A stretch of 64,000 nt of DNA from Chlorobiota bacterium (GTDB lineage: Bacteria; Bacteroidota; Bacteroidia; Bacteroidales; JAADJA01), in NCBI GenBank assembly GCA_013151015.1, contig JAADJA010000171.1, positions 1 to 64,000 on the forward strand, in the 5' to 3' direction. Shown here piece by piece: positions 2,518 to 60,868 of this stretch. The position numbers and the translations under genes were made by a program. Numbering within the stretch: position 1 is the stretch's first letter; every line of letters starts with the position of its first letter. The notes under the pieces are model-generated. The model was not told the origin of the DNA and searched no databases. It saw nothing but the letters and a program-made list of their open reading frames with translations.

Positions 2518-4467
2518 ATGGCTACTTTAAATTCAAAAATACCTGAAGGACCATTGGCGGAAAAATGGAAGAATTTCAACGCACACCAAAATCTGGTTAA
2601 CCCGGCAAATAAGCGCAAGCTTGATATTATTGTCGTGGGCACAGGGCTTGCAGGGGCCGCTGCCGCCGCAAGTCTCGGTGAACTTGGCTTTATTGTGAAA
2701 AACTTCTGTATTCAGGACAGTCCGCGACGTGCACATAGTATTGCCGCACAAGGCGGGATCAATGCCGCAAAAAATTACCCGAACGATGGCGACAGTGTCT
2801 ATCGCTTGTTTTATGATACAGTAAAAGGGGGCGATTACCGAGCACGCGAGGCCAATGTTTACCGCCTTGCCGAAGTCAGCAATTCCATTATTGACCAATG
2901 CGTTGCACAAGGTGTCCCGTTTGCAAGGGAATATGGAGGTTTGCTCGATAACAGGTCTTTTGGAGGTGCTTTGGTCTCCAGGACATTTTATGCCCGTGGC
3001 CAAACCGGCCAGCAACTTCTGCTTGGTGCGTACGGGGCCTTGAGCAAGGAAGTTCATAAAGGTTCCGTGAAAATGTACACCCGTCGTGAAATGCTGGATT
3101 TGGTAATCGTGGATGGCAGGGCCCGGGGGATTATTACACGGAATACGGTAACCGGTGAAATCGAACGCCATTCGGCCCATACAGTGGTCATAGCCACAGG
3201 TGGTTACGGAAATGTATTTTTCCTTTCTACCAATGCAATGAATTCAAACGGGAGTTCAGCATGGCAATGCTATAAAAAAGGGGCTGCTTTTGCAAATCCT
3301 TGCTTTGTGCAAATACATCCAACCTGTATCCCTGTCCATGGTGATTTCCAATCGAAGTTGACATTGATGAGCGAAAGCCTGAGGAACGATGGACGAATCT
3401 GGGTTCCAAAAAACAAGGAAGATGCCCGGAAAATCCAAAAAGGGGAATTGAAACCAACAGAAATAGCAGAGGAAAACCGCGATTATTACCTTGAAAGGAG
3501 ATATCCCGCATTTGGGAACCTGGTTCCCAGGGATGTTGCGTCAAGGGCTGCAAAAGAGCGTTGCGATGCTGGACATGGCGTAGGAAACACCGGACTTGCC
3601 GTTTACCTTGATTTTAAAGATGCCATCAACCGTTTGGGCAGGGATGTTATCGAAGCACGTTATGGAAACCTTTTCCAGATGTACGAAAAAATCGTGGATG
3701 ACAATCCTTATGAAACCCCGATGATGATTTATCCGGCCATCCATTATACCATGGGCGGGATTTGGGTCGATTATGAATTGGAAACAACCATCCCGGGATT
3801 GTTTGCAGGGGGAGAAGCCAACTTTAGCGATCACGGTGCAAACCGGCTTGGGGCTTCTGCCTTGATGCAGGGACTTGCCGATGGATATTTCGTATTGCCT
3901 TATACCGTTCAGAATTATTTGGCCGATCAAATCAATGTTCCCCGCTTTTCGACCGATCTTCCTGAATTTGAGGAAGCAGAAAAAGCGGTGAAGGACAAAC
4001 TTGACAAATTGATCAATAACAAAGGTTCAAAGAGCGTGGATTCATTCCACAAACGCCTTGGACATATCATGTGGGACAATGTGGGGATGGCGCGCAATAA
4101 AGAAGGTTTGGAAAAGGCAATTAAGGAAATCAAGGCTTTAAGGGAAGAATACTGGAAAGATGTGGATGTTCCCGGTTCGTTGGAAGGCGTCAACGTTGAA
4201 CTTGAAAAAGCAGTAAGGGTTGCCGATTTCCTTGAATTGGGCGAATTGATGGCTCGTGATGCCCTTCACCGCAAGGAATCCAGTGGTGGTCACTTCAGGG
4301 AAGAATACCAAACACCGGAAGGCGAGGCCCTAAGAAATGACAAGGACTTTATGTATGTGGCAGCCTGGGAGTACAATGGGGATGGCGAACCCATATTGAA
4401 TAAAGAACCCTTGAATTATGAAGATATAGAGGTGAAAACAAGGAATTACAAGGAAGCAAAAAGCTAA
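2518..4467 (+). CDS. sdhA: Succinate dehydrogenase/fumarate reductase flavoprotein subunit
   Basis: FAD-binding [41 protein letters not shown]; start taken at [11 protein letters not shown]. Confidence 0.96.
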
Positions 4468-4536
4468 TCAACCTGGTAGAAATCCCTTGAACGAATAGTT
4501 TAATTAATGAAGGTAAAAAATTAATATACAACAGAT

Positions 4537-5280
4537 ATGGACTTGACATTAAAGATATGGCGACAAGCAGGGCCCACGGTTAAGGGCAAGTTTGAACAAT
4601 ATTCTATTTCCGGCATTTCGACCGACAGTTCTTTTCTTGAAATGATGGATGTCCTCAATGAAGAATTGATTGGCAAGGGTGAAGAACCGGTTGCATTTGA
4701 CCATGATTGCCGCGAAGGTATTTGTGGGATGTGCAGTTTATATATCAATGGTCGTCCGCATGGCCCAGATGGTGGGATCACGACCTGTCAGTTGCACATG
4801 CGCAAGTTCAAAGATGGTGAAACAATCACGATTGAGCCCTGGCGCGCAAAGCCTTTCCCCGTTATCAAAGACCTCATCATTGACCGTTCAGCATTGGATG
4901 CCATTATCCAGTCGGGTGGGTATATTTCGGTAAATACCGGAGGTGTGCCTGATGCAAATGCAATCCCAATTGCCAGGGAAGATGCCGAGCTTGCCATGGA
5001 TGCAGCAGCTTGTATTGGTTGTGGCGCTTGTGTTGCAGCCTGTAAGAACGCTTCGGCCATGTTGTTTGTTTCGGCCAAGGTTTCACAGTTTGCTTTGTTG
5101 CCACAAGGAAAAACAGAAGCAAAGGACAGGGTCAGGACCATGGTCGCAAAAATGGACGAACTGGGGTTTGGCAATTGCACCAATACCTATGCTTGTGAAG
5201 TGGAATGCCCAAAAGAGATTAAAGTAACAAATATCGCCCGCATGAACCGCCATTTCCTTGGTGCAAAAGTGAGCGGTTAA
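4537..5280 (+). CDS. sdhB: Succinate dehydrogenase/fumarate reductase iron-sulfur subunit
   Basis: Fe-S motifs [15 protein letters not shown] and [24 protein letters not shown]. Confidence 0.96.
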
Positions 5281-5306
5281 AGCTTAAGTTATTTTCATGG
5301 AGTGTT

Positions 5307-5344
5307 AAAAAAGCTGTTTTCCTAATCGGATCGCAGCTTTTTTT
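5307..5344 (+). terminator. Rho-independent terminator after sdhCAB (possibly bidirectional with arfB)
   Basis: AAAAAAGCTG...CAGCTTTTTTT inverted repeat with T tract. Confidence 0.6.
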
Positions 5345-5353
5345 GTTCTGTCC

Positions 5354-5776
5354 TTATTCAACATCAGGGGGTTTTCTTCTTTCCTTTTTGTCCGATTGTT
5401 TCTTTTTATTTTCAAGTCTTTTCTTCTTTTTCGTTTCGCTCAATTTTATGGGGATCCGTTTTTTTGGTAGGGTAAGTGCGCTTTCCAGGATTTCAAAAAA
5501 CTTTTCGATCACCGATTCCTTGTTTCTTGATTGTGAACGGTATTTTTCCGAAACAAGCACCAATTCCCCTTGATTATTGATTTTATTTCCGGTTTTTTCA
5601 AAAAGCAAGGCTTTGTCATCATCCGATAAGAGGTTTGTTTCATTGATGTTAAAACGCAGTTCGACTTTTGTGTTCACTTTGTTCACATGTTGTCCTCCAG
5701 GGCCACTGCTTCTCGAAAAAGAAAAAACCATCTCTTCGATAAAACTTTTTTCCGGGTATTTTAAGGGGCTGTCCAT
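5354..5776 (-). CDS. arfB: Alternative ribosome-rescue factor, RF-1 domain peptidyl-tRNA hydrolase
   Basis: SSGPGGQHVNKVNTKVELRF (GGQ motif) and basic C-terminal tail KKRIPIKLSETKKKKRLENKKKQSDKKERR. Confidence 0.92.
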   Translation of the reverse strand: MDSPLKYPEKSFIEEMVFSFSRSSGPGGQHVNKVNTKVELRFNINETNLLSDDDKALLFEKTGNKINNQGELVLVSEKYRSQSRNKESVIEKFFEILESALTLPKKRIPIKLSETKKKKRLENKKKQSDKKERRKPPDVE

Positions 5777-8134: not shown

Positions 8135-8211
8135 AATCCTATTTTGTTAATTCATTGTTGAAACAAAAGTAATTTAATTTGGACTTTTACTTCAATTAAT
8201 AATCTACATTT

Positions 8212-8415
8212 GCAACGCAATTATGGTGCACTTGCCTTGAAACCCAGGGCAAGTCTGAAAAGGGAATGCCGTGCTCCCGTCAATCTGGAAATTCGGCAAC
8301 AGTACCCGCTGCTGTGATCGTCATTGACTTTTTGAAATTCTTAGCCACTGTTCATTTGGATGGGAAGGCTTTCAAAAAAGGGCGTAAGTCAGAAGACCTG
8401 CCAGGTTGTCGAATT
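8212..8415 (+). promoter_or_regulatory. Cobalamin (AdoCbl/B12) riboswitch
   Basis: GGGAATGCCGTGCTCCC...CGGCAACAGTACCCGCTGCTGTGATC...GCCACTG...GGGAAGGC...AAGTCAGAAGACCTGCC (B12 box at ~8386-8403), upstream of B12-uptake-type genes. Confidence 0.95.
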
Positions 8416-8516
8416 ATTTCAAGCTTTCGGGATAAAAGCTATGGGTAAATGACCAAATCATCTATTCAAAGAATTTTCCTGTAAGTTTTTAGTGTTAAAC
8501 CTTTAAACTTTACAAA

Positions 8517-17305: not shown

Positions 17306-19600
17306 ATGCGTACAAAATTATTTTTAGCCCCCGTGTTCATTTTGCTGTTCGGGCTCGTTGCACAATCCCAAAACAACAATAACCAACTTTTTAAGGAAAG
17401 GGGAGAGGTGTTTTTCAAGTTCAACATGGAAACGCCCAAGGATATTCATTTTCTGACCAACACAATTTCAATTGACGATGTGCAAGGAACATTGGTTTTT
17501 GCTTATGCCAATGAGAAAGGTTTTTCGGAATTCCTGGGAATGGGCATTGATTACACTATCCTGCCCCATCCCGGTGATATTGAAAACCCTAACATGAAAA
17601 GCAGTATTGACCTGAAAAACATTGACAGTTGGGATTTTTATCCAACATACGAAGCCTATGTGGATATGATGTACCAGTTCCAAACCGATTATCCCGGGCT
17701 TTGCCAGGTTTACAGCATTGGGCAATCGGTACAAAACCGCGAATTGCTCATGGCACGTATCTCCGATAATGTGGGCACGGACGAAGGCGAGGCGCAATTC
17801 CTTTATACCTCCACCATGCACGGTGACGAGACAACCGGTTTTCCGCTTATGCTCAGGTTTATCGACTACCTTCTCTCGAATTACGGTTCGGACGACCGGG
17901 TCACTGGGCTTGTGAACAACCTTGACATTTATATCAACCCGAACGCAAACCCTGATGGCACCTACCATGGAGGGAACAATACCGTAAACGGTGCACAGCG
18001 TTACAATGCAAACAATGTGGACCTGAACCGCAATTACCCTGACCCCCAGGATGGCCCGCATCCCGATGGGGAAGCATGGCAACCCGAAACCCTCGCTTTC
18101 ATGGCCTTTGCCGAAAGCCATCATATTGTATTGGCTTGCAATATGCACGGTGGCGCCGAGGTGTGCAATTATCCCTGGGACACATGGGCGCAATATCCTG
18201 CCGATACGGATTGGTGGCAATATGTGATGCACGAATATGCGGACACGGCACAACTGTTTTCACCCAATGGGTATATGTCAGGCTTTGATGATGGGATAAC
18301 GAATGGGTATGCCTGGTACGAAGTTAACGGTGGCCGGCAGGATTACATGAACTATTTTCAACAATGCCGTGAATTTACCATTGAACTTTCCGATCAAAAA
18401 CTATTGCCCCCAAGTCAGTTGCCTGCCCATTGGGATTACAACTACCGTTCGTTTTTGAATTATTTGGAACAAGTCCAATATGGTGTAAGCGGAACGATAA
18501 CCGATGCGGATACAGGGGATCCCCTGGTTGGTGAAGTTTATATCGAAAGCCATGAAGCCGACAGTTCCTGGGTTTATTCGGGTGTGCTTGGCGATTATCA
18601 CCGTCCGCTTTACCAAGGTACTTACGACATTACCTATTCGGCAATTGGATATATCCCACAAACGATAAACGTAACAGTTGCAAACAAGGAGACAAGCATT
18701 GTTGATGTGCAATTGGAATCCGGTGATTTGATCGCGGATTTTACAGCAAGCACCACCAATGTTTCCATTGGTGGAAGTGTGAACTTCACCGATCTTAGTT
18801 TTGGGAGTCCTGTAAGTTGGGAATGGACATTTGAAGAGGGGACACCCTCAACCTCCAATGAGCAAAACCCAACAGGGATCGTATATAGCAATGTCGGTTC
18901 TTTCGATGTAAGCCTTACGGTATCCGATGGGACCAATTCGCAAACCATCACCAAAAACGATTATATCCATGCCACGATCGATATCGTTATGGAGAATACA
19001 ACCATCACGACCTGTCTCGGTACATTTTACGATACGGGTGGATCGGCAAATAATTATGGCGATGACGAGGACATTACGATGATATTTTTACCGGGCACGG
19101 AAGGCGCCATGATTGAATGTGTATTTACGATGTTCAACGTGGAAGATGAATCCAGTTGTAATTACGACTGGTTGAAGATTTATGATGGCAATTCCACATC
19201 CGCAACCTTGATCGGGAAATATTGCGGGACAGATTCGCCGGGCACGATAACAGCCACGAATCAGGAAGGTGCCATTACCTTTCAATTTCATTCCGATGGC
19301 TCGGTAACCAAACCGGGCTGGGCGGCAAACATCAGTTGTGCAGGGATTACATTTGTGAACGAAGATGTGATGACGCAAATTAAGGTTTTTCCAAACCCGG
19401 CGAAAGACGTGATTTCCATTTCATCCCCTTTGAAAATCCAATCTATTGTGATCCTTGATATGATTGGGAAACAAATATTGGTAAAAGAGGTAAACCAAGA
19501 ATCCATTAATTTGAATATTTCCGGTTTGGATTCAGGTTTGTACTTTGTCAACTTAAAAACCGAAGAAGGAATTGTCACAAAGAAAATAAGGGTTTTGTAA
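17306..19600 (+). CDS. Secreted M14 zinc carboxypeptidase with PKD, CUB and T9SS sorting domains
   Basis: STMHGDETTGFPLMLRFIDYLL (HxxE), NPNANPDGTYHGGN, NNVDLNRNYPDPQDG; PKD SFGSPVSWEWTFEEGTPS; CUB TTCLGTFYDTGG...; VFPNPAKDVISIS CTD. Confidence 0.93.
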   Translation: MRTKLFLAPVFILLFGLVAQSQNNNNQLFKERGEVFFKFNMETPKDIHFLTNTISIDDVQGTLVFAYANEKGFSEFLGMGIDYTILPHPGDIENPNMKSSIDLKNIDSWDFYPTYEAYVDMMYQFQTDYPGLCQVYSIGQSVQNRELLMARISDNVGTDEGEAQFLYTSTMHGDETTGFPLMLRFIDYLLSNYGSDDRVTGLVNNLDIYINPNANPDGTYHGGNNTVNGAQRYNANNVDLNRNYPDPQDGPHPDGEAWQPETLAFMAFAESHHIVLACNMHGGAEVCNYPWDTWAQYPADTDWWQYVMHEYADTAQLFSPNGYMSGFDDGITNGYAWYEVNGGRQDYMNYFQQCREFTIELSDQKLLPPSQLPAHWDYNYRSFLNYLEQVQYGVSGTITDADTGDPLVGEVYIESHEADSSWVYSGVLGDYHRPLYQGTYDITYSAIGYIPQTINVTVANKETSIVDVQLESGDLIADFTASTTNVSIGGSVNFTDLSFGSPVSWEWTFEEGTPSTSNEQNPTGIVYSNVGSFDVSLTVSDGTNSQTITKNDYIHATIDIVMENTTITTCLGTFYDTGGSANNYGDDEDITMIFLPGTEGAMIECVFTMFNVEDESSCNYDWLKIYDGNSTSATLIGKYCGTDSPGTITATNQEGAITFQFHSDGSVTKPGWAANISCAGITFVNEDVMTQIKVFPNPAKDVISISSPLKIQSIVILDMIGKQILVKEVNQESINLNISGLDSGLYFVNLKTEEGIVTKKIRVL

Positions 19601-19704
19601 ATACCTGTTCTTACAGTAAGGGCGTGGTTTGCAAAATAGATAGTCAGCATAAATATTGCGACCGTTATATGCCAATAGACCGCACCCTGAATTTGGAAAC
19701 CGAT

Positions 19705-19740
19705 AAAAAAGCACCTGTATCAATTACAGGTGCTTTTTTT
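19705..19740 (-). terminator. Strong terminator hairpin, likely 3' of rnpB (could act bidirectionally)
   Basis: AAAAAAGCACCTGTATCAATTACAGGTGCTTTTTTT, ~10-15 nt beyond the rnpB P1 3' strand. Confidence 0.75.
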
Positions 19741-19749
19741 GATTTAAAA

Positions 19750-20282
19750 AGAAAAACCAACAGCTCCGTAAGCGGGATCCTGTTCTATCCTGTCATTTAT
19801 CTAGGAGCAGTGTCACCACTGCCCTCTAGCAGCCAACCCCCCGGGATCGGACGAGCAGCCCTTATATCCACATTGCGGATATCCCCGGTATATTTGGCCT
19901 TTCAACCCGTAAGGTTTACCCCATTGCCATGTCACCATAACAATGCGTGGGCTCTTACCCCACGTTTTCACCTTTACCCGCCGGAGCTTCAGCGTAGGCG
20001 GGTTTACCCACCCAATACTACTGGATTGGGTTTACCCACCTAATTCATCAGGATTGGTTTACCCACCTTTTAAAATTTGGGTAAAGCCAAATATGAAAAG
20101 GCCAGTGGACCCTTCCCGTAAAACCAAAACCCCGGCAGGAAGTCATTCTCTGTGGCACTTGCTGTATGCCAACGCACCTAAGTATCGTTGGCACCCTTCC
20201 TGTTAGGAAGTACGGCGCTCTGTGTTGTCCCGACTTTCCTCCCCGTATAAACGGGACGACAGGTCGAACTGCTGGTTTTCCG
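19750..20282 (-). ncRNA. rnpB: RNase P RNA (bacterial class A), enlarged
   Basis: Reverse complement reads GGGGAGGAAAGTCGGGACAACACAGAGCGCCG ... GCCACAGAGAA ... GGTAAAGGTGAAAACGTGGGGTAAGAGCCCACG ... AAGGCCAAATATACC ... GATCCCGGGGGGTTGGCTGCTAGAGGGCAG ... CCTAGATAAATGACAGGATAGAACAGGATCCCGCTTACGG. P1 closes by pairing of aaaaccagcag (5') with ctgttggtttt (3'). Confidence 0.95.
19977..20057 (-). repeat. Tandem hairpin array within rnpB (three stem-loops joined by TGGGTAAACC linkers)
   Basis: On the RNA strand: CCAATCCTGATGAATTAGG / CCCAATCCAGTAGTATTGGG / CCCGCCTACGCTGAAGCTCCGGCGGG separated by TGGGTAAA. Confidence 0.8.
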
Positions 20283-20457
20283 TTTGCGAAATTACGAAAA
20301 TTTAGGAATGAAATAAGAAAGGTGCGAACAGTAAGTCTTTTTTTAACCAGGGGAAACAGAGCAAAGCAAATAGGTTCATAAAAACTTGCAAATTCACTTT
20401 TACTAGTGAACTATTTGATTATCCCATATATTTTATTGAATCAATTATTTTTTCGGA

Positions 20458-20509: not shown

Positions 20510-22150
20510 ATGAAAACCATTTTCACAATCCTTTTTGGCTTAATAATATCCCTTCAAATGATGGCACAAAAAAAGCAAGCGGACCTTATCATGTTCAATG
20601 CGGTGGTTTATACGGTAGATGAAAATTTTAGCACGCAAGAGGCTTTTGCGGTAAAAGATGGAAAGTTTATGGCAATTGGCAACAATAAGGATATCCTGAA
20701 AGCATATTCTTCGGAAGAAAAGATAGATGCAAAAGGGAAAGCTGTTTATCCCGGCCTTATCGATGCGCATTGCCATTTTTATGGTTATGGCCTGTCCCGT
20801 GTGGCACAAGCCAATCTGGTCGGGACAAAATCATTTGAAGAGGTTGTTGAAAAGTTGCGGGAATTTGCTAAAGAAAACCCATCTGATTTTATCCTTGGCC
20901 GTGGCTGGGACCAAAATGACTGGGAAGTTAAAAAGTTTCCCGAAAATAAATTATTGGATAAAGCTTTTCCCGAAACGCCCGTATTCATAAGACGGATTGA
21001 TGGCCATGCCGGCATTGCAAATTCCACAGCCCTAAAGCTTGCGGGGATTACCGAAAACTCGAAGGTAAACGGGGGAGAGGTGAAAATGAAAAACGGAAAG
21101 CTTACAGGTGTACTTGTGGACAATGCCATGGAATTGATGTCAGGGGTTATCCCTTTACCGGACGAAAGTGTAAGGCGAAATGCTTTGACAACAGCACAAT
21201 CCGATTGCTTTGCTGTTGGGCTGACTTCCGTGGTGGATGCCGGATTGGGGAACAATATCGTGAAACTTATTGACAAAATGCAAAAGGACGGTAAAATCAA
21301 AATGAGGGTGAATGCCATGTTGTCCCCAACGGAAAGGAACCTGAACCAATATGTGAAAAACGGCCCCTGGCAAACAGACAGGCTTACGGTGCGTTCCATC
21401 AAACTTTATGCTGACGGGGCACTGGGTTCTCGGGGCGCAAAACTCATCCTCCCTTATTCCGATGCCCCGGAAACAAGCGGCCTTCTCATCGAAACCCCTG
21501 ATTATTACCGTGAGATTTGCCAACTTGCTCTCGACAATGGCTACCAAGTAAACACCCATGCCATCGGCGATTCGGCCAACCGGATGATGTTGGATATTTA
21601 TGGGGGATTCCTGAAAGGCAAAAACGATTTGCGTTGGCGCATCGAACATGCACAGGTAATCAATAAAGACGATTTCCATTTGTTCACCAAATATTCCATC
21701 GTCCCTTCTGTTCAAACAACCCATTGTACTTCGGATATGTATTGGGCCGAAGACCGTTTGGGCCCGGATCGGGTCAAAGGGGCTTACGCATACAAAACCC
21801 TCTTAAAGGAAAATGGATGGTTGCCCCTTGGGACTGATTTCCCGGTTGAAAATATCAATCCGCTTTACACTTTCTATGCAGCCGTAGCCCGCAAAGACCG
21901 GGAAGGCTATCCTGAAAATGGCTTTCAGGTCAAAGATGCCCTGACACGGAAAGAGGCCCTTCAGGGAATGACCATTTGGGCGGCCAAAGGGAGTTTTGAA
22001 GAAAACATCAAAGGGAGTATTGAACCCGGCAAGGTTGCCGATTTTGTAATCCTACAAAAAGACATCATGCAAATAGGCATTGATGAAGTCCCGGATGTAA
22101 AGGTCGTTTCCACCTGGTCGGGCGGGGAGAGGGTTTATCCCCAAGAATAA
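20510..22150 (+). CDS. Exported amidohydrolase family 3 (YtcJ-like)
   Basis: Signal peptide; YPGLIDAHCHFYGYG, GRGWDQNDW, RRIDGHAGIANSTAL, LPLGTDFPVENINPLYTFYAAVAR. Confidence 0.92.
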   Translation: MKTIFTILFGLIISLQMMAQKKQADLIMFNAVVYTVDENFSTQEAFAVKDGKFMAIGNNKDILKAYSSEEKIDAKGKAVYPGLIDAHCHFYGYGLSRVAQANLVGTKSFEEVVEKLREFAKENPSDFILGRGWDQNDWEVKKFPENKLLDKAFPETPVFIRRIDGHAGIANSTALKLAGITENSKVNGGEVKMKNGKLTGVLVDNAMELMSGVIPLPDESVRRNALTTAQSDCFAVGLTSVVDAGLGNNIVKLIDKMQKDGKIKMRVNAMLSPTERNLNQYVKNGPWQTDRLTVRSIKLYADGALGSRGAKLILPYSDAPETSGLLIETPDYYREICQLALDNGYQVNTHAIGDSANRMMLDIYGGFLKGKNDLRWRIEHAQVINKDDFHLFTKYSIVPSVQTTHCTSDMYWAEDRLGPDRVKGAYAYKTLLKENGWLPLGTDFPVENINPLYTFYAAVARKDREGYPENGFQVKDALTRKEALQGMTIWAAKGSFEENIKGSIEPGKVADFVILQKDIMQIGIDEVPDVKVVSTWSGGERVYPQE

Positions 22151-60295: not shown

Positions 60296-60868
60296 ATGGA
60301 AGACAATACGGTTAATGAACCTTTAGGGCAATACGGCAGACCTGTTGGTTTTGATCAGGTGTGGCAAATGTTTCAGGAAACGGACAAGAAATTCAAAGAA
60401 ACCGACAAGCAATTCAAAGAAACGGACAAGAAAATTAAAGAACTGTCAGCCCTTTTTACATCACAATGGGGGAAATTAGTTGAATCCCTGGTTGAAGGGG
60501 ATCTTGTTAACATATTGAACCATCGGGGAATTCAAGTTGAAAAAACCATTCAACGTGTAAAAGGAAACCATAAGGGGCAAAATTTCGAATTCGACATCAT
60601 AGCCATTAACGGGAAAGAAATAGTAATTGTTGAAGTTAAAACAACATTACGGGTACAGGATGTGAACCATTTTCATGAAAAATTGTGGAAAGCAAAACAA
60701 TTCATGCCCGAATACAATGACAAACATATCTACGGTGCAATGGCTTTCATTATTGCCGAAGGGGCAAGTGAACGGATGGCAGAAAACCAGGGCTTTTTTG
60801 TTATCAGGGCAACGGGCAATAGTTCATCGATCGTCAATAAAAACAGTTTTAAACCAAAAGCTTTCTAA
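60296..60868 (+). CDS. Coiled-coil protein with predicted PD-(D/E)XK nuclease-like domain (DUF3782-like)
   Basis: ETDKKFKETDKQFKETDKKIKEL heptads followed by FEFDIIAINGKEIVIVEVKTTLR (D...ExK). Confidence 0.75.
   Translation: MEDNTVNEPLGQYGRPVGFDQVWQMFQETDKKFKETDKQFKETDKKIKELSALFTSQWGKLVESLVEGDLVNILNHRGIQVEKTIQRVKGNHKGQNFEFDIIAINGKEIVIVEVKTTLRVQDVNHFHEKLWKAKQFMPEYNDKHIYGAMAFIIAEGASERMAENQGFFVIRATGNSSSIVNKNSFKPKAF
60377..60439 (+). repeat. Three in-frame 21-bp tandem repeats
   Basis: GAAACGGACAAGAAATTCAAA / GAAACCGACAAGCAATTCAAA / GAAACGGACAAGAAAATTAAA. Confidence 0.9.

Follow-up and report, generated by a model that had tools for sequence, protein, structure and literature searches.

A class A RNase P RNA gene with a tandem repeat array in an enlarged helix P12

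The window, a 64,000-nt stretch of a Chlorobiota bacterium genome (G000), encodes on its reverse strand what is very probably a working class A RNase P RNA in which helix P12 was lengthened by a palindrome and then by tandem 27-nt units, a growth that the molecule would have tolerated. It is an ordinary bacterial RNase P RNA gene, present once in the genome, and no new kind of molecule. An Rfam search matched RF00010, the class A family, at 20275-19753 on the minus strand with 222.7 bits (E 5.6e-71; gathering score 100 bits), the match covers all 367 model positions (1-367), and it is the only one in the 4.32-Mb assembly, a draft of many contigs. An RNase P RNA gene on this strand was what the original prediction had proposed, naming a covariance-model search with Rfam class A as a check; the full-length, significant minus-strand match bears it out, and every conserved block that the prediction quoted is present in the sequence.

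The gene, its extent and its flanks

The Rfam alignment and the sequence contain the class A helices P4, P16-P17, P13/P14, P18 and P1 together with all conserved regions, and rnpA, which encodes the protein subunit, is found in the genome (TIGR00188, 42.7 bits). In its conserved regions and helices, its single copy and the presence of rnpA the gene agrees with bacterial class A RNase P RNA; it differs from the usual class A form in a P12 of ~170 nt that carries a tandem array and in a total length of ~527 nt. The catalytic core and the tRNA-binding regions are canonical, and P12, which belongs to the specificity domain, is the main departure (Table 1).

The length follows from the P1 inverted repeat, in which 20266-20279 pairs with 19753-19766, so that the arms end at 20279 and 19753 and delimit an RNA of ~527 nt; the ~533 nt first estimated from the P1 termini had the ends approximately right. 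Since most RNase P RNAs measure 250-550 nt (PMC2996960), the window RNA lies at the upper end of the usual range and within it, and the 580-nt RNA of the nearest relative, G010, lies outside. Plus-strand ORFs overlie the RNA, and a Pfam search of them gave no match, in keeping with the earlier view that they are spurious.

On one side of the gene a stem and T-run probably form a terminator. On the other side a box, TAATTTCG in the window and TAATTTTG in G010, sits 8 nt before the P1 arm; it resembles the TAnnTTTG-type Bacteroidota promoter element and may serve as the promoter. A simple consensus scan listed neither the terminator (19740-19702) nor the promoter box (20294-20287). The flanking genes, at 17306-19600 and 20510-22150, encode respectively an M14 carboxypeptidase bearing a Por secretion tail and an amidohydrolase. 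Elsewhere in the window we observed a Cobalamin riboswitch aptamer at 8207-8419 on the plus strand (RF00174, 94.5 bits, E 3.1e-22) and a 21-bp tandem repeat, GAAACGGACAAGAAATTCAAA, at 60377-60442 (3.1 copies, TRF score 104).

Table 1. Features of the rnpB locus in the window
Feature	Position	Strand	Basis
Class A RNase P RNA gene (rnpB), ~527 nt, P1 arm to P1 arm	19753..20279	-	RF00010 match and P1 inverted repeat
Enlarged helix P12, 5' strand after CR-II to 3' strand before CR-III	19971..20142	-	Rfam insertion point; fold z
Tandem array at the P12 tip, ~27-28-nt unit in two clear copies and a weak third	20000..20082	-	Repeat search, TRF
Imperfect palindrome CCCGCCTACGCTGAAGCTCCGGCGGG, whose 3' half supplies the 3' strand of P12	19977..20002	-	Also in seven relatives' P12
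P12 apical hairpin, CCTTTTC...AAAAGG, in the opposite orientation to that of G010	20066..20101	-	Mismatch counts
P9 hairpin, one copy, unlike the array	20167..20193	-	Inverted repeat, Rfam alignment
Small additional hairpin, P16/P17 region	19863..19884	-	Inverted repeat; insertion in Rfam alignment
Probable intrinsic terminator	19702..19740	-	GC-rich stem then T-run; stem conserved in G010
Possible Bacteroidota promoter -7 box, TAATTTCG	20287..20294	-	Conservation with G010 (TAATTTTG)

The tandem array and its distribution among relatives

The large insertion in the Rfam alignment falls at the P12 tip, between CR-II (CACAGAGAA) and CR-III (GGGTAAAGGTGAAA). A repeat search resolved it into copies at 20000-20027, 20028-20055 (82% alike) and 20055-20082 (64%), and TRF run on the window reports 20000-20068 with period 28, 2.5 copies and score 96. 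A tandem duplication of hairpins together with their linkers had been predicted; linkers of the TGGGTAAACC type do occur in the array and TRF confirms the repeat, which is located inside P12. The proposed source of the array, a tandemly duplicated P9 stem-loop, was wrong, because CR-II and CR-III flank the array and P9 is present once (20193-20167) with an unrelated sequence; the probability of this origin is negligible.

The 27-nt unit, allowing up to three mismatches, was found nowhere outside the rnpB of G000 and G010 in the eight genomes searched. To assess dispersal, pattern searches were combined with a 259-kb sample, and with the unit confined to rnpB a dispersed repeat was ruled out. 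A scan of genome contigs for tandem TGGGTAAACC pairs gave 56 stretches, of which, judged by a simple core-motif check, only L101 has the pair in rnpB. JAJRTT010000252.1, from a 'Bacteroidetes bacterium' MAG, bears the array pattern. Repeated blocks of another kind, CCCCGTCATTGCGAGCCGAAAGGC and GAAGCAATCTG, occur in several copies on one contig of G000 (L124, G000:C1, ~2547-5525).

The family sample consisted of 17 genomes, all of one genus, and 12 of the 17 have rnpB in the assembly. Ten of these genes are 350-449 nt long, the window match is 523 nt and that of G010 580 nt, so the RNA is unusually large, as first claimed, and ~160 nt longer than in short-armed relatives. In the short same-genus relatives the P12 region measures 32-41 nt and contains a CCCGCC/GGCGGG hairpin. 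RF00010 matches were obtained in 234 of 247 genomes of the order, and none of the other matches with listed coordinates exceeds 498 nt (G237 is unlisted, G036 and G179 are split). One of 498 nt (L153, G260:C13; 116 bits) has a layout unusual for the order and belongs either to a divergent lineage or to a foreign contig.

Comparison with the nearest relative rests on one genome, G010. Pairwise alignment shows the core, the 3' flank and the terminator stem to be nearly identical, with compensatory changes in P9 and in P16/17, where they fall in the arms of the additional hairpin at 19863-19884. Alignment with close relatives had been suggested as a check, and it places the extra sequence inside P12, in G010 as well, where the Rfam alignment likewise puts a large insertion at the P12 tip between CR-II and CR-III. 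The main difference between the two P12 arms is a 54-nt block, two 27-nt units, that is extra in G010; TRF gives 4.4 copies at 92% there and 2.5 in the window, exact values that are to be taken with care as they come from draft assemblies. A unit found only in two rnpB genes that differ by two units indicates, at the level of sequence, that the array is private to the branch of the window and G010 and is changing in copy number. That both genomes are many-contig drafts might suggest that the array is an assembly artefact, yet two separate assemblies have it in the same place with different copy numbers and diverged copies, which makes an artefact very improbable.

Folding of the enlarged P12

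Folded alone, the P12 region (19960-20145) has z = -6.95, and the whole RNA z = -8.29. The best predicted fold is one long branched P12, in which the 5' strand pairs with the 3' strand and closes on CCUGCCGG/CCGGCGGG; this closing helix has a predicted probability of ~1.0 and is paired in the Rfam alignment too. Array units are predicted to pair among themselves, given the near self-complementarity of GGGTAAACCC, and the same pairing of 5' with 3' strand is predicted for eight P12s of the palindrome-bearing type.

The alternative is that the array forms a row of short, independent hairpins with single-stranded TGGGTAAA linkers between them, the last hairpin (ACCCGCC/GGCGGGT) replacing the P12 closing helix. 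The P12 of short relatives is just such a CCCGCC/GGCGGG hairpin, and the ACCCGCC/GGCGGGT pairing survives unbroken in seven related P12s, where two positions show double changes. However, this covariation could reflect DNA-level symmetry of the palindrome, the competing closing helix is the one predicted at near certainty and paired by Rfam, and enforcing three separate hairpins yields -60.2 kcal/mol as against -85.8 for the long P12. The three linker-joined stem-loops of the original prediction are thus a possible fold, at a cost of 25.6 kcal/mol, and we regard separate hairpins as improbable, though a reading to be taken seriously. In the closing helix L151 shows the one double change and L010 the one break, and a strand-swap test of P12 pairing was not significant (470/5040 permutations); the RNAalifold input was eight P12 ends with 5' strands placed ungapped rather than properly aligned, so its output does not bear on the long helix. 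Covariation decides for neither fold, and the long P12 is favoured by the models on energy and Rfam consensus.

Ribosomal RNAs are known to be fragmented at extra helices, and this general precedent, together with the prediction that P12 is long and largely paired, raises the idea that the array acts as an intervening sequence, the long P12 being cut by RNase III or an enzyme like it to leave an RNA that works in two pieces. No sign of this was seen in the sequence, and the P12 helix is interrupted by internal loops and branches, so we consider it quite unlikely.

Palindromes, loop inversions and the growth of P12

A palindrome of ~26 nt of the CCCGCCTACGCTGAAGCTCCGGCGGG type is present in the P12 of four other genomes of the genus (G009, G010, G011 and G015) and of G217, G068 and G173, from three other families of the order; it occurs in 2 places in G000, one of them beyond rnpB, and in 19 in G217, counts to compare with the many copies per genome that mark REP-like dispersed palindromes. 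Another palindrome, TCCCGATAGCTATCGGGA, is found in up to 54 places per sister genome (reversed control, 0) and in zero copies in G000 and G010. As the source of the window's insert both TCCCGATAGCTATCGGGA and TTCCGTCAGCTGACGGAA were ruled out, being absent from G000. TCCCGATAGCTATCGGGA is dispersed, with symmetric variants, in G001, G002, G004 and G015 (L057, L058). Within rnpB, a TCCCGATAGCTATCGGGA-type palindrome serves as P9 in G006, and in G004 and G015 it supplies an additional hairpin immediately ahead of ACAGAATCCCGC, the P19 site. TTCCGTCARCTGACGGAA makes up P9 in G003 (L002), and in G006 (L005) and G005 (L006) it is the hairpin of P16/17; all three genomes have hardly any further copies of it. 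These distributions suggest that variable arms of the RNase P RNA may repeatedly have captured genomic palindromes in this group.

Two hairpins appear flipped between the window and G010. The 36-nt apical P12 hairpin has 7 mismatches when compared directly and 3 after reverse complementing, and the loop of the terminator hairpin (19702-19740) has 6 directly and 1 inverted; random substitutions reproduced neither inversion in 200,000 trials each, and P14, P16/17 and P18, also checked against G010, showed none. Loop inversion is known as a trace that template switching leaves in replication (PMC8794818), and hairpin-driven switching is thus a plausible source of change in the P12 arm, judged from two genomes. 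As in the published cases, the hairpin interior is reverse-complemented and the stem kept; those lie in rRNA and microRNA genes, whereas here they lie in the P12 and the terminator of rnpB.

Taken together, the sequences point most probably to an RNase P RNA that is functional and whose P12 has expanded non-adaptively. A palindromic sequence would have lengthened P12 in ancestors of the group, and a 27-nt segment of hairpin and linker at the P12 tip would afterwards have been duplicated in tandem in the branch of the window and G010, with a copy number that may still be changing. Because the units are complementary to themselves and their neighbours, added units would fold back into P12 and spare the core, so that growth could be tolerated. 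We infer this order of events, the stability and activity of the whole RNA, and an array with no essential function of its own. We tentatively entertain a broader reading, that in this order genomic palindromes have landed again and again in P12, and in sister species also in P9, P16/17 and the P19 site, and were then amplified in tandem and flipped by template switching.

Tandem repeats have reportedly been described inside cyanobacterial rnpB (by Vioque, in 1997, as cited in PMC2858038). The cyanobacterial repeats also lie in the P12 arm, and they are STRRs, short repeats spread over the genome. They are the nearest precedent for the window array, with which they share a tandem repeat within rnpB. 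The window array differs from STRRs in its phylum, its unit of ~27 nt and its restriction to rnpB (G000 and G010).

Published work supports tolerance of P12 growth. P12 is peripheral and dispensable in some bacteria including cyanobacteria (PMC2858038). An RNase P RNA examined in solution, one that is not class A because it has P10.1 and a P12 tetraloop-receptor contact, counts P12 among its most mobile elements (PMC11779636). The P12 tip is also a common expansion site in archaea and eukaryotes, where growth there (ES5.1 and ES5.2) binds RNase P proteins (PMC12974513). This gives some weight to the possibility that selection maintains the array as a binding platform for a protein or a second RNA. 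The window shares growth at the P12 tip with ES5.1 and ES5.2, but its growth is a recent bacterial tandem repeat with a partner that is hypothetical; the array is private to two genomes with an unstable copy number, it is missing from close relatives, and its apical hairpin is inverted between the window and G010. A platform is accordingly unlikely, if slightly less so than an intervening sequence, and tolerated expansion is the reading that we retain.

For annotators, the locus shows that rnpB can pass 500 nt and lie under spurious ORFs. The genus offers a natural series in which the P12 region runs from 32 to 235 nt and the RNA from 350 to 580 nt, and in which a peripheral ribozyme arm appears to grow as units duplicate in tandem, palindromes are captured and loops invert, with the core staying fixed. 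If P12 and its fellow arms are indeed landing places for palindromes, the arms of an essential ribozyme would have been built repeatedly from repeat DNA.
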